39,954 nucleotides of DNA from Sulfurimonas sp. CG01_land_8_20_14_3_00_36_23. GTDB taxonomy: Bacteria; Campylobacterota; Campylobacteria; Campylobacterales; Sulfurimonadaceae. The notes beneath the pieces are model-generated. The model worked only from the letters and a program-made list of their open reading frames with translations, was not told the DNA's origin and did no database searches. Below, piece after piece: positions 311 to 37,051 of this stretch. The translations under genes and the position numbers were made by a program. Location: the NCBI GenBank assembly GCA_002781365.1, contig PETN01000059.1, forward strand, positions 1 to 39,954. Reading direction: 5' to 3'. Within the stretch, counting starts at the first letter, position 1, and each line of letters begins with the position of its first letter.

Positions 311-321
311 TTCCACATGCC
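311..321 (+). repeat. Uptake-like word TTCCACATGCC, copy in intergenic DNA
   Basis: Exact copy, followed by AAAA, in the 46-bp spacer between the deaminase remnant and the end of the GGDEF/EAL gene. It is the only exact copy outside a coding region, so protein coding cannot explain it. Confidence 0.8.
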
Positions 322-348
322 AAAAGGATGAGCGTTTAAACCTCTCTT

Positions 349-2289
349 TTATAAAGGAAGTTGCTCTTGAGGTTCTGCTAGAAAGAAACCTTGCGTGCGG
401 TCTACTTGAAGCTCTTTTACTTTTATACTGACTGCTTCATTATGAACGAACTCAGCAACAGTCAGTATATTTAATTTTTTTGCAAAATTTACAATTGTTT
501 CAACAATAACCTGTGCGTTTGTGTCTGTTTCAAGATTTTTGATGAGTGAACCATCTATCTTTATGTAGTCAATATTGAGCTTAAGAAGATGCTCAAAGTT
601 TGAATATCCTGAACCAAAGTCATCTATGGCTATTCTACAGCCAAGGGCTTTCATCTCTTTTATAAAGTCGGAAATTTCTTCATAGTTTTCAATTCCCTCA
701 GATTCTAGAATCTCAAAAATAATTTTATGTGTAACATTGTACTCTTCAATAGTTTTTTTGATATACCTTGCTACATCACTGTTGAGAATATCTTCCACAG
801 AGAGATTCACTGAAAAATCACAATCAAGATGTTCAAAATAGTGGCAGCTTTTTTGAATCATTATTTTTGTGAGCTCATAATACAATCTGCTTTTTTTAGC
901 AATGCTCAAGAACTGAGAAGGAGAGACAATATTGTTCTCATCGTCAATAAGGCGGATTAAACATTCACAACTTACAATTTTTCCTGATTTGTTATCGAAA
1001 ATAGGTTGATAATAGGGGATAATCTTATCTAGATTAATGGCTGTTTTTAGCTTTTTAACCCACTCCATGTTATTTTTATACTGCCCTTCAACATTTAACT
1101 TTTCATCATAAAACTGATAGGATATCCCTTTCTTTTTAGCTGATTTGAGGGCGATATCCGCTTTTTCTAAAGCACCCTCTATCTGGTAAACACCGCCAAC
1201 CGTGATTCTTAGAGATATCTCATTTTTTTCATGAAAGAAAATCATCTTTTCTACATCAAAAATTAACTTTTGAGTCATCTCTATCAGTTCATCAAGCGGT
1301 GGCTTTTGCACAAAAAAGAGAGCAAACTCATCCCCTGAAAAGTGTTTTAGGATAATGTTTTCATCTTCAAGAAACATTTTTTTAAGTCTCATTGAAAATT
1401 TTATCAAGATTGTATCGCCTACTTTTTGCCCGAAAAAGTCGTTAATTTCTTTAAAGTCATCAATATTAATAATAATCAGGGCACCATCACTAAATGTGTT
1501 GATTTTCTTTAGCAGACTAAGCCTGTTTGGTAATCCTGTCAAGTTATTAGTATAGAGTTGTTTGCTTAGCTCTAGAGTCTTCTCAGCAACCCTCTCTTCA
1601 AGATAATGGTTAATATTTTGCTGGTTTTTTGAATAGTGTAGGATATTCTGCTGCATACTGTTGAGCGCAGTTGAAATCAGACCTATCTCATTGTGTGCTT
1701 CTGCAAAAGGTATATTTATCTCTTTATTTGGAGAGTAGTTCTTAAGGGAAGTGGCAATCTGTCTAAGTGGCAAGAGCAGACGTTTGATATAGAGCCCTAG
1801 GAGCAAGAAAAGAATAGAGAGAAACAAGAAGAGTGAAACAGTTAATTGTGTATATTTATTGGTTAACTCTTGATAGTTTTTACTCGAATAGGTAAGAATA
1901 ATTGTTCCAACCTTTTTTTTAGAGTTAGGTCGGAAAATATTTTTCTCAACTACAAAAGAGCTCTCAATACCATTTTCATACTCTTTAGATTTGATTTCAT
2001 TAATAGTCTTGCCATTTTTTAAAACTTTTAGCGCAAGGATGTTGGGATTTTCAATAAGTTGTAGAGCAATCATATCTGTTTTGCTACTCATATCGAGATA
2101 GATGTTGAGTGCTATCAAAGGTTCTATCGTTCTGACAATAATATTTGCTTTTTCAATTTCAATATTGTAAAAAGCCTCTTTATTTATTTTCTCAACAACA
2201 AGAAAAACAATCAGAATAATAAAAAAAGATACAAGAGTTACAGAGAGAACAATCCTAGATGAAAGCGAACCTGCAGCTTTATTTCTCAT
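349..2289 (-). CDS. Membrane GGDEF-EAL protein with HAMP (c-di-GMP turnover)
   Basis: Predicted inner-membrane sensor of about 646 residues. In order: TM1 (about 14-34), a periplasmic segment (about 35-148), TM2 (about 150-170), HAMP (about 171-222), GGDEF (about 245-400) and EAL (about 412-645). The GGDEF signature is SGDEF (first glycine replaced) and the EAL signature is ECL. The EAL catalytic set otherwise looks present: ExL glutamate, N in VNLS, E in EILES, DDFGSG, K in YIKID, and the AEFV glutamate. It could therefore be a phosphodiesterase with a weakened or regulatory cyclase domain. I prefer the second ATG (2289) because AGGA sits about 8 nt upstream of it but only 2 nt before the ATG at 2295. 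It follows the YfiR-like gene by about 60 nt on the same strand and is probably its cytoplasmic output partner. Confidence 0.93.
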   Translation of the reverse strand: MRNKAAGSLSSRIVLSVTLVSFFIILIVFLVVEKINKEAFYNIEIEKANIIVRTIEPLIALNIYLDMSSKTDMIALQLIENPNILALKVLKNGKTINEIKSKEYENGIESSFVVEKNIFRPNSKKKVGTIILTYSSKNYQELTNKYTQLTVSLFLFLSILFLLLGLYIKRLLLPLRQIATSLKNYSPNKEINIPFAEAHNEIGLISTALNSMQQNILHYSKNQQNINHYLEERVAEKTLELSKQLYTNNLTGLPNRLSLLKKINTFSDGALIIINIDDFKEINDFFGQKVGDTILIKFSMRLKKMFLEDENIILKHFSGDEFALFFVQKPPLDELIEMTQKLIFDVEKMIFFHEKNEISLRITVGGVYQIEGALEKADIALKSAKKKGISYQFYDEKLNVEGQYKNNMEWVKKLKTAINLDKIIPYYQPIFDNKSGKIVSCECLIRLIDDENNIVSPSQFLSIAKKSRLYYELTKIMIQKSCHYFEHLDCDFSVNLSVEDILNSDVARYIKKTIEEYNVTHKIIFEILESEGIENYEEISDFIKEMKALGCRIAIDDFGSGYSNFEHLLKLNIDYIKIDGSLIKNLETDTNAQVIVETIVNFAKKLNILTVAEFVHNEAVSIKVKELQVDRTQGFFLAEPQEQLPL

Positions 2290-2336
2290 ATCCATTTCCT
2301 ATAAAACTATTTATGCTTTTAATTTTATCATGAATA

Positions 2337-2359
2337 GGCTGAGGCGAAGTCTCTCAGCC
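2337..2359 (-). other. Hairpin between the yfiR-like and GGDEF/EAL genes
   Basis: Perfect 7-bp inverted repeat GGCTGAG / CTCAGCC with a 9-nt loop, overlapping the yfiR-like stop codon. No T-run follows on the minus strand, so it is more likely an mRNA processing, stability or attenuation element than a strong terminator. Confidence 0.4.
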
Positions 2360-2899
2360 ATTATCATTATCAATAAATTTTACTATTTGTAAAAGAGAAT
2401 CTAAAAAATCCACTTTTTGAGTATCTAAATTTTCTTTGTTAAGATAAAGCACTGTTGACTTTTCTAACAAGAGAGAGAAGAGGAGCCCCTGTTTCAAGTT
2501 CTCCAAATCGTATGAAAAAGCGACAACCCCTTTTTCTTTCACTATTTTTGCAACTTTTTGCATATTCATACTTGTGTTGAGTACGTAAATTGCAGAAGCT
2601 TGTGTCTCATTGGATAAATCAGAGAACTCGACAAGGCTGATTTTGTATTCATATTCATCGAAATGTCCATCATAGCTTTCATCTATAAACTTTCTTATAT
2701 CTAATGCTGTCTGATAATCATTTTTATCATAAACAATTGTATAGACTATTTTCCCATCTATAAGTTTGTTCGATAGCTTCTTATCTAAAAGTACAATCTT
2801 AGGAAAAATGGAAGCTTGCGCTTTTAATAGAACCTCATTGTAGTTATGCGCATAAAGTAAATTTGCAAGAGTCAAAATAAGAAAAATAATTTTTTTCAT
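2354..2899 (-). CDS. YfiR-like (DUF4154) periplasmic protein
   Basis: 181 residues with a clear signal peptide (MKKIIFLILTLANLLYA). The mature part has the YfiR/DUF4154 pattern of alternating strands and helices: a central segment ending in AIYVLNTS, then KGVVAFSYD, then STVLYLNKENL, then a C-terminal helix ending LLQIVKFI. YfiR is the periplasmic repressor of the diguanylate cyclase YfiN in Pseudomonas. The assignment rests on pattern, length and context; identity to YfiR is low by eye. A strong AAGGAG lies 6 nt before the ATG, inside the end of the TonB receptor gene, so the two are translationally close. It precedes a membrane GGDEF/EAL protein with a periplasmic segment, matching an outer membrane-periplasm-inner membrane relay. 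It could also be another small periplasmic protein. Confidence 0.7.
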   Translation of the reverse strand: MKKIIFLILTLANLLYAHNYNEVLLKAQASIFPKIVLLDKKLSNKLIDGKIVYTIVYDKNDYQTALDIRKFIDESYDGHFDEYEYKISLVEFSDLSNETQASAIYVLNTSMNMQKVAKIVKEKGVVAFSYDLENLKQGLLFSLLLEKSTVLYLNKENLDTQKVDFLDSLLQIVKFIDNDNG

Positions 2900-5056: not shown

Positions 5057-5606
5057 TACCTAACTGCTTTGTGTATAAAATACATGGCAATCGCAAGCCC
5101 ATTTTGCCTTGCAACTGCTTTTCGCCTATTACTTCATAACGCATTTTATACATTTTGAGCAACCGTATAAAGTGAGCTTCAAGCGCACCATAGGAATACT
5201 CAATGTCTAGTGCAGTCATTCTATCATATAATAACTTTTTAAGTTCTTGTATGATGACTTTTGTACTCCTAAGGTTTCTATGTTTCGCATCTATAAATAT
5301 TCTTGAAATCTCTCCAAGGTGCTCTCTCTCAAACATACTACGATCAAATATCATCCCATTTTCTGTTGGATATCCATGTGGAGAGTTGTGTATAAGTCTT
5401 ACAGTTGCACAGATATTGTTCTTCTCATCAATCGCGGCAAAATGCACAGAAAATGGGTCATAGATGTCCCTCTCTTTGTAGTTTAAAAAAGATGTCTCAC
5501 GAAAATAGTCTTTATATACTGGAGTATCTCGAATTACGTTGTATCTAAATGCAAAAACTTTCTCTAGCATCTCACCATCTTTAACTTCAAAAAATGAAAA
5601 ATTCAT
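5028..5606 (-). CDS. LuxI/GNAT-like N-acyltransferase
   Basis: 192 residues, of the acyl-homoserine-lactone-synthase-like GNAT superfamily (the group that includes PEP-CTERM-associated acyltransferases). The family order is visible: FRYNVIRD near the N-terminus (the LuxI Arg/Phe helix), ERDIYDPFSVHFAAID (D-x-x-D region), an arginine strand ICATVRLIH, and EISRIFID (like the LuxI E-S-R strand). Such enzymes transfer acyl groups from acyl-ACP or CoA to an amine. No lactone-forming specificity can be inferred, and no luxR-type regulator lies alongside. The start is set at 5606 because AAGGAG lies 5 nt upstream; the longer ORF start at 5633 lacks this. It is first in a same-strand set with the TonB receptor, YfiR-like protein and GGDEF/EAL protein, which suggests it modifies something those proteins sense or handle. 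Confidence 0.75.
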   Translation of the reverse strand: MNFSFFEVKDGEMLEKVFAFRYNVIRDTPVYKDYFRETSFLNYKERDIYDPFSVHFAAIDEKNNICATVRLIHNSPHGYPTENGMIFDRSMFEREHLGEISRIFIDAKHRNLRSTKVIIQELKKLLYDRMTALDIEYSYGALEAHFIRLLKMYKMRYEVIGEKQLQGKMGLRLPCILYTKQLGIDNPELISF

Positions 5607-5642
5607 CTTATCTCCTTCGAAATCTTTTAGCACAAATAGATT

Positions 5643-5653
5643 GCCATGTGGAA
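5643..5653 (-). repeat. One-mismatch copy of the TTCCACATGCC word
   Basis: GCCATGTGGAA differs from GGCATGTGGAA at one base. It lies in the 120-bp spacer between the acyltransferase start and the AEC transporter stop, so it is outside coding sequence. Apart from this I see nothing in that AT-rich spacer. Confidence 0.5.
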
Positions 5654-5726
5654 ATAGAAATTCTTAATGCATTATAGTGTTTTTCTTAAAAAATAAATTT
5701 ATATTTGCAGTTTGTATGTAGTTTGT

Positions 5727-6626
5727 TTAATTTATAAAATAATAAAGAAAGGCACTCGAGCCAAAAGAGAAGATGATGCCATACCCTACAATCGCCGAAG
5801 CAAGACGAGGAGCTAGCCCTGCCATAGAAGCCACAGCACCTGCAGTTATCATCGGTGCCATTCCCGCTTCCATGATGGAAACTTGTGCTGCCATGTTGTT
5901 CCACTCAAAGATTCCACATGCCAAAATTGCAACGGCAGGAGCGAGAATGAGTTTGATAAATATTGCAACCGAAAAGGGTTTTATCTCCTCTTTTGGAAGA
6001 AAAAGTTTGAGTTGCAGTCCAGCTGCCACAAGTGCGAGAGGAATTACTGTTGAAGAGAGAGCGTGAAGGGTGTATTCAACTGTCGATGGGTAACTATTTC
6101 CAAGAAATAAAAATGCAAGAGCAAGTGCCATGAACGGGGGAAAAATTAAAACTTTTTTGAGCATTTGTGAGGGAACAATTTTTCCGCTGTGCGAGTAGTA
6201 AACCACTACAAAAGTTCCGTAAGTTCCAAGCGCAATTGCAGTTCCAAGCTGGTCGTACATCATCAAGTAAGCAAGAGAATCTCCGCCTAAATACGCCGTA
6301 ATCATAGGAATGCCCACAAACGAACTGTTGGTTAAAACTGCAACAAGCATCAAAGCACCCTCAACCTTTTTAGGAAAGTGCATCAGCCTTGAAAACGCAA
6401 GCACCAAAAGCGCCGAAGCAATCATCACAACCCAAGCAACAAAAGGGGGAATAAACATCTCCATCGAAAATGTGAGCTTCGGAATTTCGAGTAAAATGAG
6501 TGCAGGAAGTGAGATATAAATCACAAAACGGTTCAGAGTAAGAGGCATATCTTCCGAAAATATTTTAAATTTTTGAAGGATATAACCGAGTGTGAAAGTA
6601 AAGGCTATGAGAAAAAAGTTGTCCAT
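5727..6626 (-). CDS. AEC-family permease (auxin efflux carrier-like)
   Basis: 299 residues with about ten hydrophobic segments in the two-times-five arrangement of the AEC/BASS fold. Visible family features are the opening FTLGYILQK, the first-repeat segment VLTNSSFVGIPM, and the second-repeat IMEAGMAPMITAGAVA followed by GLAPRLASAIVGYGIIFSF. Bacterial AEC proteins export or exchange small organic acids; the substrate here is unknown. Length is normal (about 300-320). It is on the same strand as asnB, 65 bp downstream of it. It carries one exact WTCCACATGCC word (5912-5922), read in frame as Ala-Cys-Gly-Ile. Confidence 0.9.
   Translation of the reverse strand: MDNFFLIAFTFTLGYILQKFKIFSEDMPLTLNRFVIYISLPALILLEIPKLTFSMEMFIPPFVAWVVMIASALLVLAFSRLMHFPKKVEGALMLVAVLTNSSFVGIPMITAYLGGDSLAYLMMYDQLGTAIALGTYGTFVVVYYSHSGKIVPSQMLKKVLIFPPFMALALAFLFLGNSYPSTVEYTLHALSSTVIPLALVAAGLQLKLFLPKEEIKPFSVAIFIKLILAPAVAILACGIFEWNNMAAQVSIMEAGMAPMITAGAVASMAGLAPRLASAIVGYGIIFSFGSSAFLYYFIN
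5912..5922 (+). repeat. TTCCACATGCC word inside the AEC gene
   Basis: Exact copy flanked by AAAA. The host gene reads the complement as GCA TGT GGA (Ala-Cys-Gly). Confidence 0.8.
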
Positions 6627-6691
6627 GGTTTCCGTGCTTAAAAAAGTTGTTGCATTTTAACTAAAGTTAGATAAATCCACATACCGTAAAA

Positions 6692-8500
6692 CTACAACAT
6701 CCACTTCTTCAACCAAACGCTCAAAACATAAAGCCCCCAGACATGCTGTTTGAAACTTCCTTTTGAAGCTGTTGATATGTACTCATCGAGTTCTTTTTCT
6801 TTGAACATTCCCGTCTGTGTATTGACCTCTTTGATGAGGTTGATTTGTTTAGAGTTTATGAGGTACTCCATGTAGGGGTTTGAGAACCCTTTTTTCTTGC
6901 GTTTTAAAATCTTCTCATCGAGTTTGTCTTTCATTATCTCTTTTAAAAGTGACTTCGTTACTCCATCTTCATAGCGGAGTTTTGGGTCTATGCTGAAGAT
7001 TCCACATGCCAAGTTGTGGTCTAAAAATGGGGTGCGTGACTCAACGCCATGTGCCATACTCACACGGTCGAGTTTGGTTAGAAAATGCTCGGCTTGAAAG
7101 AGGTTTAAGTCAATGTAACTGTACCAGATGCTCTCATCAGAGTGCGCCGAACTCTCGTAAGCGTCACGGTAGGGTTTGAGGTATTGGAGCGATTCGTTGT
7201 CTCTTACATTTCTACGCATGAGGTTGTTTTTTTGCAGGTCAGTAAACTTGTCGCCCGAGGTGCGAAACAAAAGTGTATCATCAAAAATGCGCTTGTACCA
7301 CTCCCATTCACGGTTCATGGAGAAGTTTGCACGGAAGTATTTTTTGAGCCAGTTTTTGTGTGTCAGCTGTGAAGCTTTTTGTATGTCAAGATACTCGAAA
7401 TATTGTCTGTAGCCAAGAAAGAGTTCGTCGCTTCCTTCGCCACTCATGACCACTTTGTAGCCATCTTTTTTGATTTGTTCAAATAGTAGAAAGAGTGGAA
7501 CCGCCGCGGGGTCGTTTAGCGGTTCATCAAGAGTATCAAAAACATTTCCACATGCCGAGATAAAATCATCTTGCGTGATTTCAACCTGCGTGTTGTTTAG
7601 CCCTAAAAACTCTGCACTCTCTTTTGCATTTTGGCGTTCGTCATATTTGGCAAACTCTTTGTAGCCGAGCGTGTAGGTGTGAAGACTCATACCTTTTTTT
7701 TGTGCGTAGTAGTTTAGAGTGGCGCTGTCGATTCCGCCTGAGAGAAGTGAAGCCATAGGGACATCTGCATCGAGTCTTATGTTCATAGACTCTTCGAGCA
7801 GATTTTCCAGCATGTGGATAGCTTCATCTCTATCGGTTATGATATTTGGTTTTGTGTCTAGCAAATCAAAATATCTTTTTATTTCCACATGGCGATTTTC
7901 AAATTTCAAGTACTCGCCAGCCGCCAGCTTTTTGATGCCTCTAAAAAAAGTGTGCGGTGGCGTGGGCGCTAAAAAGGAGAGGTAACTCATAAGCGCGTCG
8001 TCGTTTAGCTCTACTTTGTTTAGAAATGGAGTGAGTCCTTTGATCTCCGAAGCAAAATAAAAGGAGCCATTTTGCTCCAAGTAAAAGAGCGGTTTTTTGC
8101 CAAGCCTATCACGAAACAGATAAAGCGTCTCGCCATCAAGCAGAGCAATGGCAAACATTCCGCGCAGATGGTTTACAAAATCCACGCCCCATTTGAGATA
8201 CGCCGCGAGAATCACTTCGCCGTCACTCTGGGTTTTAAACTCAAATCCACATGCCAACTCTTGCTTCAACGCTTTGAAGTTGTAAATCTCTCCGTTAAAG
8301 GAGAGCAGGAGTTTTTCGTGCTTTATCGGCTGATGGGAACGCTCATTGATATCTAAGATACTAAGCCTTTGATGGGCGAAAAAGAGATTTTCTCTTTGCG
8401 TGATGCCGCAGTTGTCGGGTCCTCTGTGGGAGAGTTTTGATAAAGCGGATTTCGCTTGCTTCTCATCGTATTCGCCGATGATTCCAAAAATGCCACACAT
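6692..8500 (-). CDS. asnB: Asparagine synthase (glutamine-hydrolysing)
   Basis: 602 residues, the normal length. The N-terminal glutaminase domain starts MCGIFGIIG with nucleophile Cys2, followed by SHRGPD, HQRLSI and FNGEIYN. The C-terminal synthetase domain has the PP-loop SGGIDSAT and the SGEGSDELFLGY segment. The reaction makes asparagine (or another amide) from aspartate, ATP and glutamine. It starts with a one-base TAATG overlap at the stop of the methyltransferase at 8500-9072, so the two are coupled. AsnB paralogues beside small methyltransferases and surface-sugar genes often amidate sugar acids, so general asparagine supply is not certain. It contains three exact and two one-mismatch copies of the WTCCACATGCC word, read in more than one frame. 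Confidence 0.95.
   Translation of the reverse strand: MCGIFGIIGEYDEKQAKSALSKLSHRGPDNCGITQRENLFFAHQRLSILDINERSHQPIKHEKLLLSFNGEIYNFKALKQELACGFEFKTQSDGEVILAAYLKWGVDFVNHLRGMFAIALLDGETLYLFRDRLGKKPLFYLEQNGSFYFASEIKGLTPFLNKVELNDDALMSYLSFLAPTPPHTFFRGIKKLAAGEYLKFENRHVEIKRYFDLLDTKPNIITDRDEAIHMLENLLEESMNIRLDADVPMASLLSGGIDSATLNYYAQKKGMSLHTYTLGYKEFAKYDERQNAKESAEFLGLNNTQVEITQDDFISACGNVFDTLDEPLNDPAAVPLFLLFEQIKKDGYKVVMSGEGSDELFLGYRQYFEYLDIQKASQLTHKNWLKKYFRANFSMNREWEWYKRIFDDTLLFRTSGDKFTDLQKNNLMRRNVRDNESLQYLKPYRDAYESSAHSDESIWYSYIDLNLFQAEHFLTKLDRVSMAHGVESRTPFLDHNLACGIFSIDPKLRYEDGVTKSLLKEIMKDKLDEKILKRKKKGFSNPYMEYLINSKQINLIKEVNTQTGMFKEKELDEYISTASKGSFKQHVWGLYVLSVWLKKWML
7000..7010 (+). repeat. TTCCACATGCC word in asnB (copy 1)
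   Basis: Exact copy with AAG after it. The gene reads it as Ala-Cys-Gly-Ile. Confidence 0.8.
7546..7556 (+). repeat. TTCCACATGCC word in asnB (copy 2)
   Basis: Exact copy followed by GAG; the gene reads Ala-Cys-Gly-Asn. One-mismatch copies lie at 7809-7819 (AGCATGTGGAT) and 7883-7893 (TTCCACATGGC, read Arg-His-Val-Glu). Confidence 0.8.
8245..8255 (+). repeat. ATCCACATGCC word in asnB (copy 3)
   Basis: Exact copy of the A-form of the WTCCACATGCC word, followed by AAC; the gene reads Ala-Cys-Gly-Phe. Confidence 0.78.
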
Positions 8501-9072
8501 TATTTAAAAAATCCTACCGTAATATCACTCTCCAAATAGTCTGTTCTTATTTCCACATGTCCAACTTTGAGCTCCTTGGCAATCGTCTCTATTTGGCATG
8601 TGGAAAGATAGTTGTAGGTTTTTGACTCTTTCTCACCGTGGAGTGCGTTAAAGATAAAACCATTTCCACATGCCAAGAAACAGTTGCGAATAAATTGGTA
8701 GCTCTCAAAACTCTTTAATACATTCATCGCTCCACTGCAGAGATAGTAATCGGCATGTGGAAGTTCATCTTTGCAAACATCAGCTCTTATGATTTTGCAA
8801 GAAGTCTTTTCTGAGGCAATCTCACACATGATTTGCAGAGAATCAATACCGATATACTCTTTTGGTTTTTCTTGCATGTAGTGATACAAATCCCCAAAAC
8901 CACACCCCGCATCTGCAATAGTAATCTCGCTTAAATCACGGGGAAGCATCTCTAAAAGTACACTGAATCTAATATCTTGAAACAGTTTTGAATTCCAGTT
9001 GAGACCCTGTGGGGTAATGCCATATTTTCCGATGGCAGAGGTATAAAATTTTTCACTATCTATTCGCGGCAC
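8500..9072 (-). CDS. Class I SAM-dependent methyltransferase
   Basis: 190 residues. The SAM-binding motif I is ADAGCGFGDLYHYM (about residues 54-67), followed by the acidic strand end YIGIDS and a later IIRADV. The substrate is not evident. The start is GTG at 9072, with AAGAAGG about 8 nt upstream. The gene overlaps asnB by one base, so the pair is probably a two-step modification unit or was acquired together. It is the gene richest in the WTCCACATGCC word: three exact copies and one variant in 212 bp, in alternating orientation. Confidence 0.88.
   Translation of the reverse strand: MPRIDSEKFYTSAIGKYGITPQGLNWNSKLFQDIRFSVLLEMLPRDLSEITIADAGCGFGDLYHYMQEKPKEYIGIDSLQIMCEIASEKTSCKIIRADVCKDELPHADYYLCSGAMNVLKSFESYQFIRNCFLACGNGFIFNALHGEKESKTYNYLSTCQIETIAKELKVGHVEIRTDYLESDITVGFFK
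8551..8762. repeat. Cluster of four TTCCACATGCC words in alternating orientation
   Basis: Plus-strand variant TTCCACATGTC at 8551-8561, exact complement at 8595-8605, exact forward at 8664-8674, and exact complement at 8752-8762. Neighbouring copies form inverted pairs 33 and 77 nt apart that could fold. In the host gene they read as His-Val-Glu, Ser-Thr-Cys-Gln, Ala-Cys-Gly-Asn and Pro-His-Ala, so different frames are used. Confidence 0.85.
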
Positions 9073-10174: not shown

Positions 10175-10175
10175 A

Positions 10176-12659: not shown

Positions 12660-12663
12660 AGAG

Positions 12664-24612: not shown

Positions 24613-24622
24613 TTCTCTTCTT

Positions 24623-25327: not shown

Positions 25328-26441
25328 TCAAAAGACTTTTGAGTGTATCTACTATAAAGTGAGCATCATCTTCAGTTATCAGCATGTGGATTGGCAAAGA
25401 GATGTGTGACTTACTTAGTTTTTCGGCATGTGGAAATATGAGCTTAGAGTTAAATAGTGGCTGTTTGTGTAGTAGTGGAGAGTAGGGTGCATCTACTTTT
25501 ATTCCTTTTGCATTCATTTTTTCTTGGATAGCATCTCTATTATACGCTTCATCTAAAAAGAGTAAAAAACGCCAATATGCGTGTCTGCTGTTTTTTGCAG
25601 GTTGTTGTATGCGGACTCTCTTTTGTTTGAGTAAATCACTTAACGCTTCAATGTAGATATGAGCGATTTTATTTCTGTGCGTTACAAACTCTTCTAATCT
25701 TTTAAGTTGGTATCTTCCTAGAAGCCCTTGTATTTCAGTTAAACGGTGATTGCTCCCTATGTTTATAAAAAGCTCACCTTTTTGAGTTGTGTCAATACCT
25801 CTATTTCTTAGACTTGCACAGGTATCATAATCTTTTTTATTGTTGAGGGTAATCATGCCACCTTCACCAGTCGTCATATTTTTTGTTGAGTAAAATGAAA
25901 AGCACCCAAAATCACCGATGTTACCTGCTTTTAAAGGACCAAAAGTAGCTCCATGGGCGTGAGCATCATCTTCGATGAGTGCTATGTTTTTACTCTTTAA
26001 ATACTCTTTTATCTCTAAAATATCAGGGCTAATCATCCCTGCAAAATGTACAATAATAACCGCTTTTGTTTTTTTGGTTATTACTTTTTTTAAGAATGCA
26101 AAGTCTAATAAAAAATTATCATCTACATCGCAAAAAACTATTTTTGCACCTGCTTTTAGTACGCTTGAGCCAGTAGCGATAAATGTCTGTACGGGAACTA
26201 CAACCTCATCTGTTGCAGATAGACGAAGTGTTGCGAGTGCTATTTCTAATGCAGCAGTACAAGAGTTTGTTGCAACTGCATACTCTGTTGCGCAGTATGT
26301 GGCAAACTCCTCTTCAAACTTTGCAACATTCTCTCCCATGGTAAGCATTTTATTTCCTTCAAGAATCTCCCTGACTTCGAGAAGTATCTCCTCTATATCT
26401 TCATTTGGAAAATAAGGAAACGCAGTATTAAAAACTTTCAT
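25320..26441 (-). CDS. DegT/DnrJ/EryC1/StrS sugar aminotransferase
   Basis: 373 residues. PLP-dependent fold with ATNSCTAALEIALATL, the aspartate in LIEDDAHAHGATF and the Schiff-base lysine in FYSTKNMTTGEGGMI. It is a second aminotransferase in addition to LegC, so the final glycan may carry an extra amino sugar or an aminated side group. It overlaps the SDR gene upstream by 14 nt. One exact copy and one variant of the WTCCACATGCC word lie near its 3' end. Confidence 0.9.
   Translation of the reverse strand: MKVFNTAFPYFPNEDIEEILLEVREILEGNKMLTMGENVAKFEEEFATYCATEYAVATNSCTAALEIALATLRLSATDEVVVPVQTFIATGSSVLKAGAKIVFCDVDDNFLLDFAFLKKVITKKTKAVIIVHFAGMISPDILEIKEYLKSKNIALIEDDAHAHGATFGPLKAGNIGDFGCFSFYSTKNMTTGEGGMITLNNKKDYDTCASLRNRGIDTTQKGELFINIGSNHRLTEIQGLLGRYQLKRLEEFVTHRNKIAHIYIEALSDLLKQKRVRIQQPAKNSRHAYWRFLLFLDEAYNRDAIQEKMNAKGIKVDAPYSPLLHKQPLFNSKLIFPHAEKLSKSHISLPIHMLITEDDAHFIVDTLKSLLND
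25381..25435 (-). repeat. TTCCACATGCC words at the 3' end of the DegT gene
   Basis: Exact complement GGCATGTGGAA at 25425-25435 (read Phe-Pro-His-Ala by the gene) and one-mismatch AGCATGTGGAT at 25381-25391 (read Ile-His-Met-Leu). The two use different reading frames. Confidence 0.75.
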
Positions 26442-28037: not shown

Positions 28038-28040
28038 GAT

Positions 28041-29057: not shown

Positions 29058-29595
29058 TCTTTACCCCTAATTTTTTTATGACTCTCGCTGGTACACCTGC
29101 TACTACACAGTAGGGAGGCACATCTTTTGTAACAATCGCTCCAGCTCCAACTACAGAATTATTCCCAACCGTAACACCAGGGAGGATAACACTGTTTGTA
29201 CCCAACCAAGAACCCTTTTGAATGGTCACTTTTTTAGCATTATAACCCTGTTTTTTAATCGCTACAGTTATATCGGCATAATTATGTGTTGCACTATAGA
29301 TAGTGACATTTGAACCGATGAGAACATCATCTTCTATAACTATTCCATTTTCAGGGTCATTGAGCAGTGCACTTAGAATGGTTCCTGGGGGTACGATAAC
29401 ATTTTCTCCGATGGAGATACTGTTAGTGCCATTGATTGTAACAAAGGGTCTGATTTCAGAATTTTTCCCTATTTTATAGAGCTTCTTTTTTTGAAACCAT
29501 ACTCTTGTTATTTTCATATAGAAGAGCCAGTGTGTAAGGTACATGTCTGCTCCTATTTTCGGATAAAAAAGGAAAAACATTAAACTTTTAAACAT
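29050..29595 (-). CDS. Hexapeptide-repeat O-/N-acyltransferase
   Basis: 181 residues, left-handed beta-helix type. Repeats include ISIGENVIVPPG, IVIEDDVLIGSNVTIYSATH and the closing GSWLGTNSVILPGVTVGNNSVVGAGAIVTKDVP, PYCVVAGVPARVIKKLG. The likely catalytic His is in SATHNY. A hydrophobic N-terminus (MFKSLMFFLFYP) may associate with the membrane. It is a second acetyl/acyl transferase besides LegH, so it could decorate the sugar or its precursor. It starts directly after the stop of the SDR gene. Confidence 0.9.
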   Translation of the reverse strand: MFKSLMFFLFYPKIGADMYLTHWLFYMKITRVWFQKKKLYKIGKNSEIRPFVTINGTNSISIGENVIVPPGTILSALLNDPENGIVIEDDVLIGSNVTIYSATHNYADITVAIKKQGYNAKKVTIQKGSWLGTNSVILPGVTVGNNSVVGAGAIVTKDVPPYCVVAGVPARVIKKLGVKNV

Positions 29596-31412: not shown

Positions 31413-32116
31413 TATATAGTTTCCTCTAAGGCTTTATTCCACATGCCCATTGTATCTGTGCTATGTGAGTCGGTTCCGATTGAGATGAAAGGGTTGTGTT
31501 TTTTTAAGAGTGGATAGAGCAACGCGATTTGATTGTTATGGTAGCGACCGTTTAAATCAAAGGCTATCTCATTTTTCACACAGCCAAGAATAATCTCTTC
31601 GTAAAAATGGGTAGGAAATTCTTCAAAGAAAGAAAGAGACATTCCTCCTGGATGTCCTAAAACATTAAAGCCACCTCTGTTGAGTGCAGCTAAGTTGAGT
31701 TCTAACTCCATCTCTTGGGCAATAGATCTCTTAAATTCTGATGCGTTATAGAGTTTTCTTCCAAAAGGGAATCTATGCACACTCACAATCGCAATATCAG
31801 CTGCCTTTGCTACCTCTTTTTGTACATCGATATTCCCAGAAAAATCTGCTACTTTTGCTTCAAAGCCAGAGTAGATATTGAGCTCTTGCTCAGCATTTAA
31901 AAAATCTATCTCTTTTTTATAATCGTCAAAATAGGTTGAACTGCTTCGAATATGGTCGGTTATGGCTATGGAGTGCAAGTCATGTTTTTTGGCACTTTGT
32001 ATAATCTCTGCAACACTGTTTTTCCCATCTGTCCATGTTGAGTGCAGATGAAAATCTACTTTAATGGAGTACGCATCAAGCGTGTTGAATTTTGGAAAAA
32101 AATCTATTGGTTTCAT
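31412..32116 (-). CDS. PHP-domain phosphoesterase
   Basis: 234 residues. PHP metal motifs: VDFHLHSTWTDG (H-x-H), AITDHI, IVSVHRF, NVLGHPGG and IGTDSHSTDTMG. It is a metal-dependent phosphoesterase of the histidinol-phosphatase/trehalase-like fold. I set the start at 32116 because it gives an ATGA overlap with the legH stop; the longer ORF start at 32149 would overlap by 37 nt. It may remove a phosphate from a sugar phosphate before or after the ATP-grasp step. One exact uptake-like word lies at 31437-31447. Confidence 0.85.
   Translation of the reverse strand: MKPIDFFPKFNTLDAYSIKVDFHLHSTWTDGKNSVAEIIQSAKKHDLHSIAITDHIRSSSTYFDDYKKEIDFLNAEQELNIYSGFEAKVADFSGNIDVQKEVAKAADIAIVSVHRFPFGRKLYNASEFKRSIAQEMELELNLAALNRGGFNVLGHPGGMSLSFFEEFPTHFYEEIILGCVKNEIAFDLNGRYHNNQIALLYPLLKKHNPFISIGTDSHSTDTMGMWNKALEETI
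31437..31447 (+). repeat. TTCCACATGCC word at the 3' end of the PHP gene
   Basis: Exact copy; the gene reads the complement as Gly-Met-Trp-Asn, a frame not used by most other copies. Confidence 0.8.
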
Positions 32117-32685
32117 TTCACTAAACTTCCAGCTTTTATAAATCCACATGCCGTGCTATACTCTTTTATGATAGCTCCACTCCCAAAAAAAGTGTTTGCT
32201 TTTATGAGTGCTCCGCCATTAATGATGGCGGATGTAGAGATGTGAACATTCTCCTCAACAACGACATCGTGTTCTATGAGCGCCTTGGAATTGATGATAC
32301 AGTTTTTTCCTATCTTGGCATGTGGATTTAAAAGTGCGTGATGCATGACTATTGTGCCCTCATCGACAAAAGCATGTTTGGATACATACGCTAAAGGAGA
32401 GATAATGCTTGGCATGTGGAAACCTAACGTTTTTAAAAGATTGAAAAGTTTTATTCTTGTTTCATTGGACTTGATATGACCGACCGTGATGATGGCATGT
32501 GGATATTTTGTTTGTAAATCTTTTAAATCCTCATCGCATCCTATGATTTTATAGTCTAAAACGCTCTCCCCGATAAGCTCTTTTTTATCAATAATTCCGA
32601 CAATCTTATACTTTGCTTCTTGTTCTATGACATCGATAACAGATTTGCAGTGACCGCCACCGCCAATGAGTAAAATCTCTTTCAT
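32113..32685 (-). CDS. legH: LegH/PglD/NeuD-type sugar N-acetyltransferase
   Basis: 190 residues. An N-terminal Rossmann-like domain (EILLIGGGGHCKSVIDVI, KIVGIID) and a left-handed beta-helix (MHHALLNPHAKIGKNCIINSKALIEHD) are the PglD/NeuD layout, with the conserved HD catalytic pair in IEHDV. In Leg synthesis this step acetylates the C4 amino group after LegC. The neighbours directly upstream are legC and the dehydratase, so the order supports it. Short overlaps on both sides (4 nt each). It holds four WTCCACATGCC words in 363 bp. Confidence 0.88.
   Translation of the reverse strand: MKEILLIGGGGHCKSVIDVIEQEAKYKIVGIIDKKELIGESVLDYKIIGCDEDLKDLQTKYPHAIITVGHIKSNETRIKLFNLLKTLGFHMPSIISPLAYVSKHAFVDEGTIVMHHALLNPHAKIGKNCIINSKALIEHDVVVEENVHISTSAIINGGALIKANTFFGSGAIIKEYSTACGFIKAGSLVK
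32142..32504. repeat. Four WTCCACATGCC words inside legH
   Basis: ATCCACATGCC at 32142-32152 (plus), and complements at 32317-32327, 32411-32421 and 32494-32504. The gene reads them as Ala-Cys-Gly-Phe, Pro-His-Ala-Lys, Phe-His-Met-Pro and Pro-His-Ala-Ile, so three reading frames are represented. Confidence 0.85.
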
Positions 32686-33854
32686 CCTATCCTCACGCTA
32701 CTTGGTATATTGACAACTCTCTCATGAAGTTGTTTGGAGTTTATAAGCGCATCCCTCTGGCATGTTTTAAACATTTCAAGTTCACTCATCAACTGCCAAA
32801 TAGGTCTGCTCATAACTCCAGCGTTGTTTAAGCATTCCAAAAAAGTGTCTCTCTCTTTTTTGCTATCAAAAAGCAGGGCGTTGAGCCAGTAGTTTGATTT
32901 TGCATTTTCTGGTTCTTTGATAAATTTTAGAGCATGCTGTGAAAAAAACGCTTCATATCCACATGCCAAATCTCGTTTATCTTTTAAAAAAGTATCAAGT
33001 TGTTCAAGCTGAGCAACAAGAAGGGCAGCGTTTAGGTTTGGAAGCCGATAATTGTACGCAATTGCATCATGCACATACTCGTAGGCATGTGGAAGTTTCG
33101 CGGTGGTTGTTAAATGTTTTGCTCTTTTTGCAAGCTTCTCATCATCTGTAACGATGACACCGCCACCACCGCTTGTGATGATTTTGTTGCCATTAAAACT
33201 AAATGCTCCAACTTTGCCAAAAGTTCCTGTGTGCTTGTCTTTGTAAAAAGAGCCTAAACTCTCGGCTGCATCTTCAACCAGTTCCACATGCCAAATATCA
33301 CAAATCTTTTTTATCTCATCAATCTTGCAAGGGTGACCGAAAGTGTGCATAGGCACACAAGCTTTTACAATTTTATTTGTAGTTTTATTGATACATCTGT
33401 TTTCTATAATCTCACAATGATTCTCAAAAAAGTTTTCTATGGAGTTTGGACTTAAACCTAAAGTATCTAAATCCACATCAAGAAATATTGGTTTTGCTCC
33501 ACAGTAACTGATGGCATTGGCGGTTGCAACAAAAGTGAGTGCTTGCGTAATGACTTCATCTTCTGGTTGAACATCCACTAAAAGCAGAGAGATATGCAGT
33601 GCTGAGGTTCCATTTACAGTTGCAATGGCGTACTTACTTCCAACGAAAGAGGCAAATTTTTCTTCAAACGCATCGACAAACTTTCCGACACTTGAGACAA
33701 AAGTAGAGTCAATACATTCATTGAGATACTTTTTTTCATTTCCTAAAAAGCGTGGTTCATGCAGAGGAATAAACTCTTTTGTATTGTAGGTCGTTTGTAT
33801 AAAATCAACGATTGCTTTACATCTTTGCATCAAGATATTTGCCTTTGTCTTCAT
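32682..33854 (-). CDS. legC: LegC-family sugar aminotransferase
   Basis: 390 residues, DegT/PseC-like PLP enzyme. ATVNGTSALHISLLL, AFTFVATANAI, the aspartate in LVEDAAESLGSFY, and the Schiff-base lysine in FSFNGNKIITSGGGGVI, which is the LegC-branch form. It aminates C4 of the 4-keto-6-deoxy sugar. An alternative ATG at 33830 (MQRCKAIVDFI) would cut the overlap with the upstream gene from 38 to 14 nt; the start is not settled. It holds three WTCCACATGCC words. Confidence 0.92.
   Translation of the reverse strand: MKTKANILMQRCKAIVDFIQTTYNTKEFIPLHEPRFLGNEKKYLNECIDSTFVSSVGKFVDAFEEKFASFVGSKYAIATVNGTSALHISLLLVDVQPEDEVITQALTFVATANAISYCGAKPIFLDVDLDTLGLSPNSIENFFENHCEIIENRCINKTTNKIVKACVPMHTFGHPCKIDEIKKICDIWHVELVEDAAESLGSFYKDKHTGTFGKVGAFSFNGNKIITSGGGGVIVTDDEKLAKRAKHLTTTAKLPHAYEYVHDAIAYNYRLPNLNAALLVAQLEQLDTFLKDKRDLACGYEAFFSQHALKFIKEPENAKSNYWLNALLFDSKKERDTFLECLNNAGVMSRPIWQLMSELEMFKTCQRDALINSKQLHERVVNIPSSVRIG
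32957..33292. repeat. Three WTCCACATGCC words inside legC
   Basis: ATCCACATGCC at 32957-32967, GGCATGTGGAA at 33084-33094 and TTCCACATGCC at 33282-33292. The gene reads Ala-Cys-Gly-Tyr, Leu-Pro-His-Ala and Trp-His-Val-Glu, so again three frames. Confidence 0.85.
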
Positions 33855-35004
33855 ATTTAAACTCTGGAATAAGTTTGAAAAACTCTTGAACGATTTCCTC
33901 TTTATTCCAAGAAAGGCGCTCTTTAAATTGAGAGATGTTTTTACTAAATAGGTTCAAACCAATATCATCAAAAAGAGGTTCATTTTTAATGATACCCAAG
34001 CTCTCAAACCTGTTCATATCTAAACTCTCTTTATCTGTAAAGAACTCTTCAAAATCTTTCTCACCTGTTGTATCACTCGAGGTAAAAAGGCATGGCCATT
34101 TTCCTTCGCTTGGAAGAGTTTGAGCAAGTTCTCTTGCCTCATCCTCAGTTTTACACAAGTAGGGTTCGTATCCTAAATTTTTGAGATATTTCAGTGCTAT
34201 ATCGGCAAATGAGATAAGGTGTAAATTATTATCGAGCTTTGGGAAAAATATATCTCTGTTCTCTCCAAAGATACAGCTCATTAAGCATAATTCACCACTC
34301 TCTTTTGGTGTGACAAAGTAGCGTTTTATATCATTAGGAGCAACGATAGGTTGTTTTTTCTCAATACGCTCTTTAAAGCCATGCAGAAGTGAACCATCGG
34401 AAAATGCTACATTTGCAAATCGAGCAGTAGAGATTTTTATGTACTTACTGCGTCGCATTAAAAACATCTCCATAATACGCTTACTAGCACCCATCATATT
34501 TACAGGATTTGCGGCTTTATCGGTTGAGACACAAAAGTATTTTTTAGTGCGTTTCGTAGTAGCTTGGGCAAGAGTTTTGTCTGTATTGAAAATATTGACA
34601 TCAATCATTCTCATAAGTGTATATTGATCCTCTTCGCTTCTTACATGTTTGAGTGCAGAGAGGTTTAAAACATAATCATATTTTCCATCGGCTTGTATAA
34701 AAGCATCATACTCAACACTTCCAATGTCAAGTGCAAAAGTCTTGAAGTCTCCCTCTATGTAGCCAAAGGAACTTCTTATGTCTCGCACAAGCTCAACCAT
34801 ATTGTTTTCACTAATATCTACAACATGAAGTTTTAAAGGGTGTCTGGAAAATATCTCTTTTACAACGGCTTGACCAATGCTTCCAGCGCCACCAAGGACA
34901 AGAAAAGAGGAGGAAGAAACTATTTGAGATAGCTCCTCTTTGTGAGCATTTATATCATCTGAGAAAAGCTCTTTATCTCTGCCGATGAGTTTTAAAATAT
35001 TCAT
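33817..35004 (-). CDS. legB: Nucleotide-sugar 4,6-dehydratase (CapD/WbpM-type, LegB role)
   Basis: 395 residues. Rossmann motif FLVLGGAGSIGQAVVKEI, then ALKHVRSEED, the segment CVSTDKAANPVN and the active-site segment MMGASKR. In the CapD/WbpM/PglF branch the usual SDR tyrosine is replaced by methionine, as here (MxxxK). It is a soluble, short form without the membrane domain of WbpM/PglF. It would make the 4-keto-6-deoxy GlcNAc nucleotide that LegC uses. The family normally takes UDP-GlcNAc, whereas Campylobacter LegB uses GDP-GlcNAc, so the nucleotide is open. Symbol by role and position. Confidence 0.82.
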   Translation of the reverse strand: MNILKLIGRDKELFSDDINAHKEELSQIVSSSSFLVLGGAGSIGQAVVKEIFSRHPLKLHVVDISENNMVELVRDIRSSFGYIEGDFKTFALDIGSVEYDAFIQADGKYDYVLNLSALKHVRSEEDQYTLMRMIDVNIFNTDKTLAQATTKRTKKYFCVSTDKAANPVNMMGASKRIMEMFLMRRSKYIKISTARFANVAFSDGSLLHGFKERIEKKQPIVAPNDIKRYFVTPKESGELCLMSCIFGENRDIFFPKLDNNLHLISFADIALKYLKNLGYEPYLCKTEDEARELAQTLPSEGKWPCLFTSSDTTGEKDFEEFFTDKESLDMNRFESLGIIKNEPLFDDIGLNLFSKNISQFKERLSWNKEEIVQEFFKLIPEFKYEDKGKYLDAKM

Positions 35005-35561
35005 TTGTTTGCTTTGTCTATGTAGTAACTGTAGATGATGTGGTCGAGTATCATGTGCATGTCTTCGACGAGTCCATACTCATCTTTAGGCGTTTGAATA
35101 TGAAAATTTATATCTGACAATATTTTAAGCTCTCCGCCGTCAAACCCTGTAACTCCCACTATTGGAGTGGCTTGTGTTTTAGCGTACTTGACTGCTTTTA
35201 AAATATTTTCTGAGTTTCCGCTACATGAAATGGCAATAAGCAAGTCTTCTTTACAGATTCTCTCCTTGAGTTGCATAAAGAAAACATTTTCATACCCTAT
35301 GTCATTGGAGATTGCACTACAAACTGGAGTATTGTCACTTAAGCTCTGTACATCAAAATTTCTTATATCTCTTCTTTTGAGTCCAACGCCTAAATCGTTC
35401 ACCATATGTGAAGCTGTCGCAGCACTTCCACCATTGCCAATAATGTAGATTCTCCCTCTCGTCTTCTCCAAAGCCTCTACGATAGCTGTTAGGGCATCTA
35501 CATCAATGTTTTGTAGCAGTGAAATTAGTTTATCCGTGTACTCTTTTGCGAAGTGCCTCAT
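35001..35561 (-). CDS. SIS-domain sugar isomerase (GmhA-like)
   Basis: 186 residues from the ATG at 35561. The SIS fold shows IYIIGNGGSAATASHMVNDL (phosphosugar loop), CSAISNDIGYENVF, IAISCSGNSENILKAVKYA and HMILDHIIYSYY at the C-terminus. It resembles GmhA, which isomerises sedoheptulose-7-phosphate. The longer ORF begins with TTG (35609) and lacks a good ribosome site, whereas AAGGG precedes the ATG at 35561 by about 8 nt. It is the first gene of the 18-gene operon. With a split transketolase encoded divergently, it could act on a C7 or other ketose phosphate. Confidence 0.87.
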   Translation of the reverse strand: MRHFAKEYTDKLISLLQNIDVDALTAIVEALEKTRGRIYIIGNGGSAATASHMVNDLGVGLKRRDIRNFDVQSLSDNTPVCSAISNDIGYENVFFMQLKERICKEDLLIAISCSGNSENILKAVKYAKTQATPIVGVTGFDGGELKILSDINFHIQTPKDEYGLVEDMHMILDHIIYSYYIDKANK

Positions 35562-35626
35562 TTTACTAACCCTTAAGTCAAAGTATTGTATTTTACTTAA
35601 ACAAATCAAACATAAAGATTAAACAT
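35562..35626. promoter_or_regulatory. Divergent promoter region of the two glycan operons
   Basis: The only gap in which both the 18-gene minus-strand operon and the plus-strand operon can start. It is 65 bp and AT-rich. The minus strand offers TAAAAT/TACAAT as -10-like boxes. I see no sigma-28 or sigma-54 site here, so the glycan genes are not obviously under flagellar control. Confidence 0.4.
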
Positions 35627-37051
35627 ATGTATGAAGACATCTACTTTCTAAATCCCGTAGAAGCGTTGCGAGTTGCCACTGAACAAAATAGATGGGGTGA
35701 AAATAACTATTTTTTGCAAGTTTGTTATTATGATGGTGAAAAGATAGAGAGTGATTTAGTAAATCTCATCCATCTTCCCATAGATAATCTACTTGAAGGT
35801 TTAGCTTATGGAACACTTAGAATACCATCTAAAATAGATTTTGAAGGCTTAGAACTCTCTGATGAGATAAAAGTGAATGTTGAGTTGAACTTTAATATGT
35901 CTATCCAACAAGTGCAGATGTACAGAAATCAGTTTAACGCTCAATATCTTCATAAAATGAAAAACAGTGCCCCAGATTTTTCTGAGCCATTAAGGTTTTA
36001 TCTCTCCGCTAGTAGTTCAACACAAGTAATGCAATATGTTTCTAAAAATATAGCAGATACATTGCAAGCTATGGGATACGATGTTCTTTTTGAACTTTCT
36101 CATGGAATGGAAGATACAAGCAGTTTAAAAAACATGTCAGAGTTCAATCCACATGCCACAATCAATGTAAATCATCTCCACAACTCTTTTTTGAATGATG
36201 CTGTTTTTAACTTTGTTTGGTTTCAGGATGGTATGCCGATTCTGCTGAATGAAGAAATACCTTTTATAAGAGGGAGAGATCATATTTTTGTTCTTGTAAA
36301 GGGACTCAAAGAACTTTTAAATAAAAAGGGTATTGAGAGCGAACTATTGTCTTTTATGATGAATGAAAACATATATAAGTCAAGAGATGAAATTAAAAAA
36401 GATAAAAAGATAGTCTTTATAGGTCGTTCTTATGCCGGTTGGATAGAACATATTAAAAATGATGTAAGTTTGAATGAAATATATAAAGATGCACTAGAAA
36501 TCTTTGAAGAAAAAAGTTATTTAAAAAATTTGTCCCATCAAGATAGTGAAATACGGTTTCTTATGGAAAAATATAATAAAACCAAGGAATATATAGACTA
36601 TATATATATGTATTTAATGCGGGATTATTGTGTTGAAAAATTATGTACTATTAATACAGATTATGAGATAGAGATATACGGTCACGGGTGGAGTCAGAAT
36701 CCTATAGTTGCTCCTTATTTTAAGGGTATCGTGGAGTATGGAGAAGATATATCTAAAATATATAATAGTGCCACTTATGGGTACTGTCCTGGTGGTTATG
36801 TGCTTATGCAAAGAACATTGGAGTGTGCATTTAGTGAGACAATTCCTTTAGTTCTTGATGTAAGAGCCGATAAGCAAGATGTATACAATGAAAAAATTGA
36901 AGAATCTATAGAATTTTTTCATATAAAGGATTTAGAGTTGATACTCTCTCGTGAACCACAAGAAAAAAGATATGATTTTATAAAAGAGCAATATGGTTAC
37001 AAGCACTTTGTAAATAGGTGTATTGAGATTATGAATGAGGAATTATCTTGA
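35627..37051 (+). CDS. Glycosyltransferase-like protein (CgeB/GT-B C-terminus)
   Basis: 474 residues. The C-terminal half reads like a GT-B donor-binding domain: YEIEIYGHGWSQ, YFKGIVEYGEDISKIYNSA, then GYVLMQRTLECAFSETIPLVLD (compare the CgeB/DUF3880-type Glyco_trans_1_2 pattern R--E-----G). The N-terminal part (1-110) has no motif I recognise; the middle has PHATINVNHLHN and FVWFQDGMPIL. It probably transfers a sugar, perhaps onto flagellin or a lipid carrier. Donor and acceptor are unknown. Its stop overlaps the transketolase start (TTGA). One ATCCACATGCC word lies at 36147-36157. Confidence 0.7.
   Translation: MYEDIYFLNPVEALRVATEQNRWGENNYFLQVCYYDGEKIESDLVNLIHLPIDNLLEGLAYGTLRIPSKIDFEGLELSDEIKVNVELNFNMSIQQVQMYRNQFNAQYLHKMKNSAPDFSEPLRFYLSASSSTQVMQYVSKNIADTLQAMGYDVLFELSHGMEDTSSLKNMSEFNPHATINVNHLHNSFLNDAVFNFVWFQDGMPILLNEEIPFIRGRDHIFVLVKGLKELLNKKGIESELLSFMMNENIYKSRDEIKKDKKIVFIGRSYAGWIEHIKNDVSLNEIYKDALEIFEEKSYLKNLSHQDSEIRFLMEKYNKTKEYIDYIYMYLMRDYCVEKLCTINTDYEIEIYGHGWSQNPIVAPYFKGIVEYGEDISKIYNSATYGYCPGGYVLMQRTLECAFSETIPLVLDVRADKQDVYNEKIEESIEFFHIKDLELILSREPQEKRYDFIKEQYGYKHFVNRCIEIMNEELS
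36147..36157 (+). repeat. ATCCACATGCC word in the glycosyltransferase gene
   Basis: Exact A-form copy in the host coding direction, read Asn-Pro-His-Ala. It is the only exact copy in the plus-strand operon. Confidence 0.72.

Follow-up and report, generated by a model that had tools for sequence, protein, structure and literature searches.

Uptake sequences are placed by a review in two proteobacterial families, namely Neisseriaceae and Pasteurellaceae (PMC5031613). We study the word WTCCACATGCC, which recurs along a contig of 39,954 nucleotides from Sulfurimonas sp. CG01_land_8_20_14_3_00_36_23 (phylum Campylobacterota; GenBank PETN01000059.1, assembly GCA_002781365.1). This whole stretch is called the window below. 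An earlier note on its sequence had proposed the word as a candidate DNA-uptake or other genome-scale signal, and a DNA-uptake signal is indeed the best-supported reading. Among the open-access matches listed (titles and beginnings of abstracts; subscription papers and preprints outside), we found no such word for Sulfurimonas or other Campylobacterota. A paper on Aliarcobacter butzleri covers transformation and competence genes, and the phrase 'uptake signal' occurs in it once (PMC8308473).

Like the uptake signal sequences (USS) of Pasteurellaceae (AAGTGCGGT and ACAAGCGGT types), the Sulfurimonas word combines a short core with an AT-rich flank, is found about once per 1 to 3 kb, shows more perfect than single-mismatch copies, seems to originate by point mutation and comes in clade-specific types (PMC1626085, PMC7811141). 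The excess of perfect copies and the clade-specific types were used for USS by Redfield and colleagues (PMC1626085). In contrast, the word itself, the phylum and the competence machine differ, and an uptake preference for the Sulfurimonas word is putative. Furthermore, the different Sulfurimonas words reported below seem more unlike one another than the two USS types.

For Neisseriaceae, Frye and colleagues describe eight dialects of the DNA uptake sequence (DUS; receptor ComP) with a common CTG core (PMC3630211). Sulfurimonas resembles this system in that several dialects following the phylogeny are found within a compact taxon and in that inverted pairs occur (PMC3630211). Copies within open reading frames (ORFs) amount to 65% in Haemophilus influenzae and 35% in Neisseria gonorrhoeae, about 10% are part of inverted repeats, and no orientation bias is reported (PMC1939737). 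Unlike neisserial DUS, TTTCCACATGCCAAA and its complement TTTGGCATGTGGAAA do not contain CTG, the words TCCACATGCC, TAAACGCAG and TGATGCTAAG show no obvious common core when read side by side, and the inverted pairs of Sulfurimonas are without terminator features.

In Campylobacter jejuni, the self-signal is a methylated short and common site (RAATTY; known in part from a construct design), as opposed to the long over-represented word studied here. Shared with C. jejuni (Cts/PilQ, ComEC, Cj0683) are the phylum, ComEC, a machine resembling type II secretion systems and type IV pili, and a pilin encoded before priA (PMC10046745). For C. jejuni, pilQ and comEC mutants are transformation-deficient, and the pilin-like Cj0683, whose gene is located just before priA, is needed for an efficient start of uptake (PMC10046745).

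Abundance, anatomy and placement of the word

All 18 exact copies of WTCCACATGCC listed in the earlier note were recovered in a re-count of the window, with 11 on the plus and 7 on the minus strand as it had reported; the mean over 100 dinucleotide-preserving shuffles is 0.01. When one mismatch is permitted, the window shows 28 matches, i.e., 10 one-mismatch copies (0.71 expected), which agrees with the roughly ten that had been claimed. The window corresponds to the complete contig C66 in a genome of 2,427,617 bases and 102 contigs, in the following called the source genome. Here, the word occurs 877 times (454 forward, 423 reverse) and the word read backwards not once, while the core TCCACATGCC has 887 exact copies. 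That is, the word is restricted neither to the window nor to a single island, which is also seen from the 18 of 19 source-genome pieces with at least one core copy.

For k-mer statistics, we used a sample of 383.7 kb, i.e., the window and 20 further stretches including the masked L019 (1203 uninformative bases within the base total); L019 and L117 read as N and were left out of the sequence counts in later analyses. For each k between 8 and 12, the word or its parts provide the most over-represented k-mer of this sample. The two background models suggested by the earlier note both leave the excess in place: 139 occurrences of TCCACATGCC/GGCATGTGGA compare with 0.41 expected from a second-order Markov model, and codon-preserving shuffles of 379 ORFs result in a mean of 9.8 (maximum 17 in 100) vs. 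124 observed.

The 139 sites yield the consensus aTTTCCACATGCCAAA, i.e., A-T-T-TCCACATGCC-A-A-A, which is close to the WWTCCACATGCCRA given before. Upstream of the core, we observe frequencies of 0.68 for A at -3, 0.50 for T at -2, and 0.83 for T or 0.17 for A at -1; downstream, A has 0.79 at both +10 and +11 and 0.60 at +12. Little is conserved further out, i.e., conservation stops about 3 to 4 bases beyond the core on each side. The word is asymmetric and not a palindrome.

Within 422.5 kb, 126 of the 154 sites (81.8%) are located in ORFs, whose share of the sequence is 92.7%; the sites are thus mildly depleted in genes. All six reading frames are used with a preference for two of them (44 PHA-type and 35 ACG-type sites), and each of the host peptides named in the earlier note (PHA, ACG, HVE, FHM, GMW and STC) is present. 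More than half of the intergenic sites (16/28) are arranged as 8 inverted pairs. Since no T-run follows the stem in those pairs that lie within 60 bp, these are not classic terminators, and this role was rejected.

We also related the sites to leading and lagging strands based on local GC skew. The respective counts are 84/70 for the source-genome sample and 69/65 for other carriers, i.e., there is no polarity, and all 14 source-genome pieces with at least 3 copies (among the 19 counted) hold both orientations. The lack of strong polarity, from which the earlier note had argued against Chi or FtsK-orienting polar sequences (KOPS), extends from the window to the genome.

A separate observation concerns CTCTTTTG and related words, which are about threefold over-represented (209 vs. 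69) in L001-L020 and the window; words similar to CTCTTTTG appear in some other species.

Distribution within the genus and near-miss copies

We counted TCCACATGCC in 228 genomes of the family (labelled G below), 135 of which belong to the genus. High counts within the family are only found in this genus, where 11/135 genomes have at least 250 copies: G150 (1302), G117 (1298), G000 (887), G133 (859), G145 (840), G108 (758), G134 (721), G147 (401), G138 (357), G136 (314) and G179 (260). Another eight genomes (G216, G151, G207, G139, G110, G201, G215, G192) hold 31 to 183 copies, and all remaining ones fewer than 20. G136, G138, G139, G147, G179, G192, G201 and G207 are less than 90% complete. 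Among the genus genomes without a high count, G120, G104, G088, G090, G094, G121 and G106 show 8 to 13 exact copies and most others 0 to 6; the former may be remnants of a former specificity.

Next, we compare genome-wide exact counts with single-mismatch counts, i.e., matches with at most one mismatch minus the exact ones. Of the 11 genomes at or above 250 copies, eight show a ratio of exact to single-mismatch copies between 2.3 and 3.7 (887:323 for the source genome; 758:276, 1298:485, 1302:565, 859:270, 721:295, 840:295 and 401:107 for the others). The three other genomes show ratios of 0.7 to 1.0 (G136 314:303, G138 357:434, G179 260:359). The ratio stays below 0.5 throughout the group of eight genomes with 31 to 183 copies. 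By our own judgement, we call the first eight genomes active, set G136, G138 and G179 apart, and call five genomes with reversed ratios eroded (G216 183:494, G151 141:448, G207 140:370, G110 71:197, G215 36:222); G201 is classed as a variant dialect, and G139 and G192 are left unclassed. In each of six non-carriers, the places with at most one mismatch add up to between 48 and 81.

A tree of TopA (108 rows, quick search) joins G216, G151 and G207 with support 100; their clade is itself part of a larger one (98) that includes the two genomes with the highest counts, and G110 groups (99) with the source genome and G108. Secondary erosion is the simplest reading of this tree. The word looks eroded in several relatives, some of which have broken DNA-uptake genes.

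Origin of the copies

A TopA search of named genomes provided 80 loci, mostly titled Sulfurimonas, Helicobacteraceae or Campylobacterales. The nearest of them is from Helicobacteraceae bacterium CG2_30_36_10 with 92% identity. For the comparison of orthologous sites, we took 61 sites of eight carrier loci, one of which is the window, together with their neighbourhoods of 300 bases, and aligned them to the other loci of a set of 80 loci and the window. The resulting pairs are not independent.

In other carriers, 82/145 ungapped orthologous sites are exact, and the site identity of 0.855 exceeds that of the flanks (0.762). For species outside the dialect, this holds for only 6/1092 ungapped sites, and here the site identity is below that of the flanks (0.582 vs. 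0.731), i.e., the carriers are shifted from the common sequence towards the word. Loci of four eroded relatives (G216, G110, G215, G207) show 3/54 exact orthologous sites, with 11 sites one, 14 two and 16 three mismatches away. A gap inside the site is observed in 17/162 carrier, 14/68 eroded and 246/1338 other alignments. These alignments fit an origin of the word by point substitution in place rather than by insertion.

Competence genes and their lesions

The competence genes that the earlier note had proposed to look for are present in the source genome or its genus, i.e., comEC, dprA, pilins and the components of a type II secretion cluster. In the source genome, this cluster comprises GspD (352.1 bits, cut-off 351.35) along with GspE-, GspF- and GspG-like proteins. 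Its comEC is located about 7 kb from two pilin genes, P1 and P2, where the end of P2 directly precedes priA. Given this site before priA, P1 and P2 are positional counterparts of Cj0683.

ComEC was found in 123/135 genomes of the genus and in 78 of the 79 high-quality ones; the single exception among the latter is the eroded G216. In the likewise eroded G151, comEC is split into parts matching residues 1-176 and 172-424 of the source genome's protein, which are about 8.1 kb apart. The insert (L146:1229-9354, contig C15) encodes among others a TnsA-like endonuclease, KwaB (Kiwa anti-phage), a radical SAM protein and a protein of the uracil-DNA-glycosylase family. By its predicted gene content, this is an element that carries defence functions and disrupts a competence gene. 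For G216 and G215, we found no counterpart of the two pilins just before priA; two further pilin loci of G216 are of other kinds, and in G215 also the gene order beyond the nudix gene differs. The comEC frame of G215 is full-length.

Among the active genomes, 7/8 have a full-length comEC frame, and the G117 gene runs off the contig end. The priA-linked pilins are also seen in active genomes, with those of G134 and G145 cut by contig ends. Lesions were thus seen in 3/5 eroded (G216, G151, G215) vs. 0/8 active genomes, with a Fisher p-value of about 0.035 for species that are related. If all eight low-count genomes are taken as eroded, this changes to 3/8 and about 0.10. Given the relatedness of the species, we consider the association of erosion and lesions suggestive and not a proof.

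P2 was found in 109/135 genomes by profile search. Because both of its C-terminal classes occur with both main words and since it is unmatched in some word-rich genomes, P2 is not supported as dialect determinant. The P1 sequences (L122:877-1299; orthologues in L203-L220) are near-identical in their first 35 residues, but the C-terminal parts are very different between species. By eye, P1 of G147 (first word) and of G120 (second word) are almost alike.

Other words of the genus

TopA-neighbourhood loci of other species have different top words, and these results, as well as the erosion, go beyond what the earlier note had claimed. The word TGATGCTAAG (loci L067, L113-L115) has 911 copies in G154 and at most 37 in each of the other 134 genus genomes. 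WAAACGCAG is found 570 to 1398 times in nine genomes (G193, G194, G120, G104, G170, G158, G156, G160, G137), where its backwards control provides 11 to 71 matches; more genomes show intermediate counts, and the matches in G088 are 22 forward and 16 reverse. MWCACGCAR reaches 676 to 1088 copies in eight genomes (G182, G101, G165, G178, G163, G096, G119, G146; among them G101 with 949 and G119 with 734), compared to 5 to 163 elsewhere in the genus and 17 to 49 for the backwards control in its rich genomes. In these counts, none of the 135 genomes is high in two of the words.

In 80 kb of G085, the top word is TAAACGCCA. The first matches in G085 and G086 looked plus-strand-only, which we rejected as a sign of polarity since the plus strand comes first in match lists. 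The other words are mostly located in ORFs (AAACGCAG 136/143, TGATGCTAAG 40/40, AACACGCAA 14/15, CTCACGCA 73/75). At the sampled loci, some of which are orthologous repeats, CTCACGCA (22/53) and TGATGCTAAG (28/12) show a strand lean, and both words may be polar. The TopA locus of the cultured Sulfurimonas indica NW8N (L076) contains 9 CTCACGCA in 22 kb. Given this lean and far fewer tests than for the first word, a role other than uptake is possible for these two.

Beside these, the palindrome TTACATGTAA stands out in other species with 34 vs. 0.5 occurrences in 116 kb (L039, L066, L071, L074, L094, L095, L097), 26/34 of them in ORFs; it may be a counterpart of HIP1, have a regulatory role or serve as a further uptake word. 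The words TCGCAATGA and TCAGGATGA of L022 and L044 resemble what we take to be ordinary intergenic repeats. Viral contigs with TTTCCACATGCCAA (at least 120 stretches, each of the 80 listed with a single match) are uninformative.

Copies in the window

The exact copies of the window are provided in Table 1. Eight of the 18 are found within the 1.9 kb from 31437 to 33292, and 8763-31436 has a single one. This copy-poor part includes genes that by reading resemble flagellar sugar synthesis and could be recently exchanged DNA.

Table 1. Exact copies of WTCCACATGCC in the window with strand and sequence context.
Feature	Position	Strand	Context
Exact copy	311..321	+	outside listed ORFs, just past the low end of minus-strand ORF 349-2295
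Exact copy	5912..5922	+	Mem_trans (PF03547) ORF, antisense LACGI
Exact copy	7000..7010	+	asparagine synthase ORF; L027 and L034 orthologues share the exact core
Exact copy	7546..7556	+	asparagine synthase ORF; core also exact in L027 and L034
Exact copy (ATCCACATGCC)	8245..8255	+	asparagine synthase ORF; core also exact in L027
Exact copy	8595..8605	-	methyltransferase-domain ORF (LSTCQ)
Exact copy	8664..8674	+	methyltransferase-domain ORF, antisense LACGN; L027 and L041 share the exact core
Exact copy	8752..8762	-	methyltransferase-domain ORF (LPHAD)
Exact copy	25425..25435	-	DegT-family aminotransferase ORF (FPHAE)
Exact copy	31437..31447	+	PHP-domain ORF, antisense GMW
Exact copy	32142..32152	+	overlap of PHP-domain and PglD_N/hexapeptide ORFs
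Exact copy	32317..32327	-	PglD_N/hexapeptide ORF (NPHAK)
Exact copy	32411..32421	-	PglD_N/hexapeptide ORF (FHMPS)
Exact copy	32494..32504	-	PglD_N/hexapeptide ORF (YPHAI)
Exact copy	32957..32967	+	DegT-family aminotransferase ORF, antisense LACGY
Exact copy	33084..33094	-	same DegT-family ORF as the 32957 copy (LPHAY)
Exact copy	33282..33292	+	same DegT-family ORF as the 32957 copy, antisense WHVEL
Exact copy	36147..36157	+	ORF 35627-37051 (NPHAT), without Pfam match

Discussion

We consider it probable that aTTTCCACATGCCAAA is a DNA uptake sequence that is kept by biased natural transformation in a Sulfurimonas lineage. Several dialects of uptake words within one genus would be part of this best explanation. 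We infer the following course. A receptor, for which the priA-linked pilins are one candidate, would preferentially bind word-bearing DNA, such that fragments with the word would be taken up and recombined more often; for ComN, complexes have been modelled (PMC12616744). Through this molecular drive, copies arising by point mutation would spread and old ones persist, mostly within genes and on either strand. Sulfurimonas lineages with different specificities would fill their genomes with different words, and the word would erode by mutation once competence is lost. For USS, evolution by point mutation is described, and drive alone can accumulate them (PMC7811141).

An abundant word could also be maintained without any role in uptake, namely by a methyltransferase or by mismatch repair. 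This is suggested by the cyanobacterial highly iterated palindrome HIP1 (GCGATCGC), an extremely abundant genomic word that is tied to methyltransferases and replaced by alternate words in some lineages (PMC4390886). Near-misses of HIP1 are biased to its outer bases (PMC4390886), and also in sampled DNA of the source genome 32/49 near-misses concern the last base. Sampled DNA of the eroded G216 and G151, in contrast, shows near-misses scattered over the positions of the word. Moreover, HIP1 and its alternates are palindromic, unlike the asymmetric Sulfurimonas word, and the erosion of the latter coincides in part, i.e., in 3/5 eroded genomes, with lesions of competence loci. We therefore regard a HIP1-like maintenance as unlikely. 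The hundreds of copies throughout the genome would also suit a signal of chromosome maintenance, i.e., Chi, KOPS or a site of a nucleoid protein. Chi and KOPS are strand-polar, but both orientations are present in each counted piece with at least 3 copies and the totals are balanced with respect to GC skew. Furthermore, 11/135 genomes of the genus have the word in abundance and most of the remaining ones are close to background, which makes a maintenance signal very improbable.

The inverted pairs could form stems, which is what a small mobile or dispersed repeat (of repetitive extragenic palindromic or miniature inverted-repeat transposable element type) or a terminator element would show. 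Such a repeat is hard to reconcile with conservation that ends next to the core, with sites mostly inside ORFs and in all six frames, and with orthologous positions that mostly align without a gap in the site; for terminators, the T-run is missing. We thus give this explanation hardly any credence. Closer to the reading as uptake sequence is the possibility that the word serves uptake but that relatives have fewer copies because their specificity changed, not because competence was lost. The variant word TCCACATGCT of G201 (8 vs. 0.15) as well as the full-length comEC frames of G207, G110 and G215 speak for it. On the other hand, no strong replacement word stood out in 157 to 160 kb from G151 and G216 or in 83 kb of G110, in a scan with little DNA from G139 (10.5 kb) and G207 (7.7 kb), and G216, G151 and G215 carry the lesions described above. 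A change of specificity is thus quite improbable in our view.

Several observations weigh against an uptake sequence that erodes with competence. The spacing of the word is uneven (coefficient of variation 1.18 on 220 kb), such that even spacing had to be rejected, and the near-misses of the source genome share the outer-base bias of HIP1. Near-misses also exceed perfect copies in G201 (55:379), G139 (81:183) and G192 (31:289), i.e., in genomes that we do not call eroded, and the TopA tree rests on one gene. In G207 and G110, we found no lesion in comEC (full-length frames), the priA-linked pilins or dprA. Conversely, some word-rich genomes show a shortened, interrupted or unmatched comEC: that of the complete, MWCACGCAR-rich G101 has an in-frame stop and 361 of about 424 residues (L217:9668-10939), G119 shows a stop within the comEC match, and in G136 (71% complete), where the first word occurs 314 times, comEC is without a match. 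dprA is kept in 17/18 genomes examined and does not tell active and eroded ones apart, and many genomes of the genus have ComEC without any of the counted words. With regard to the candidate receptor, the P2 profile finds no match in the word-rich G134 and G145 (contig breaks), G154, G146, G137 and G138, nor in G182 as judged by its absence from the match list, and neither P1 nor P2 follows the dialect in a simple way.

For the phylum, we lean towards a wider view: Campylobacterota would have evolved uptake sequences independently, with at least four unlike words (TCCACATGCC, WAAACGCAG/TAAACGCCA, TGATGCTAAG, MWCACGCAR) in Sulfurimonas. Given so many unlike words in one genus, specificity would have switched repeatedly between very different sequences among bacteria that are closely related and for the most part uncultured, and loss of competence, e.g., by insertion of a defence-carrying element into comEC, would leave a readable decay of the word. 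If this is true, Sulfurimonas provides a third, unrelated case of uptake sequences, in which a single genus combines several dialects with natural losses. One could then test whether biased uptake (molecular drive) is sufficient for such words, in what way their specificity changes, and by which pilin the word is read. Genomes of uncultured sulfur oxidisers would moreover allow conclusions on former competence and on obstacles to the exchange of genes.

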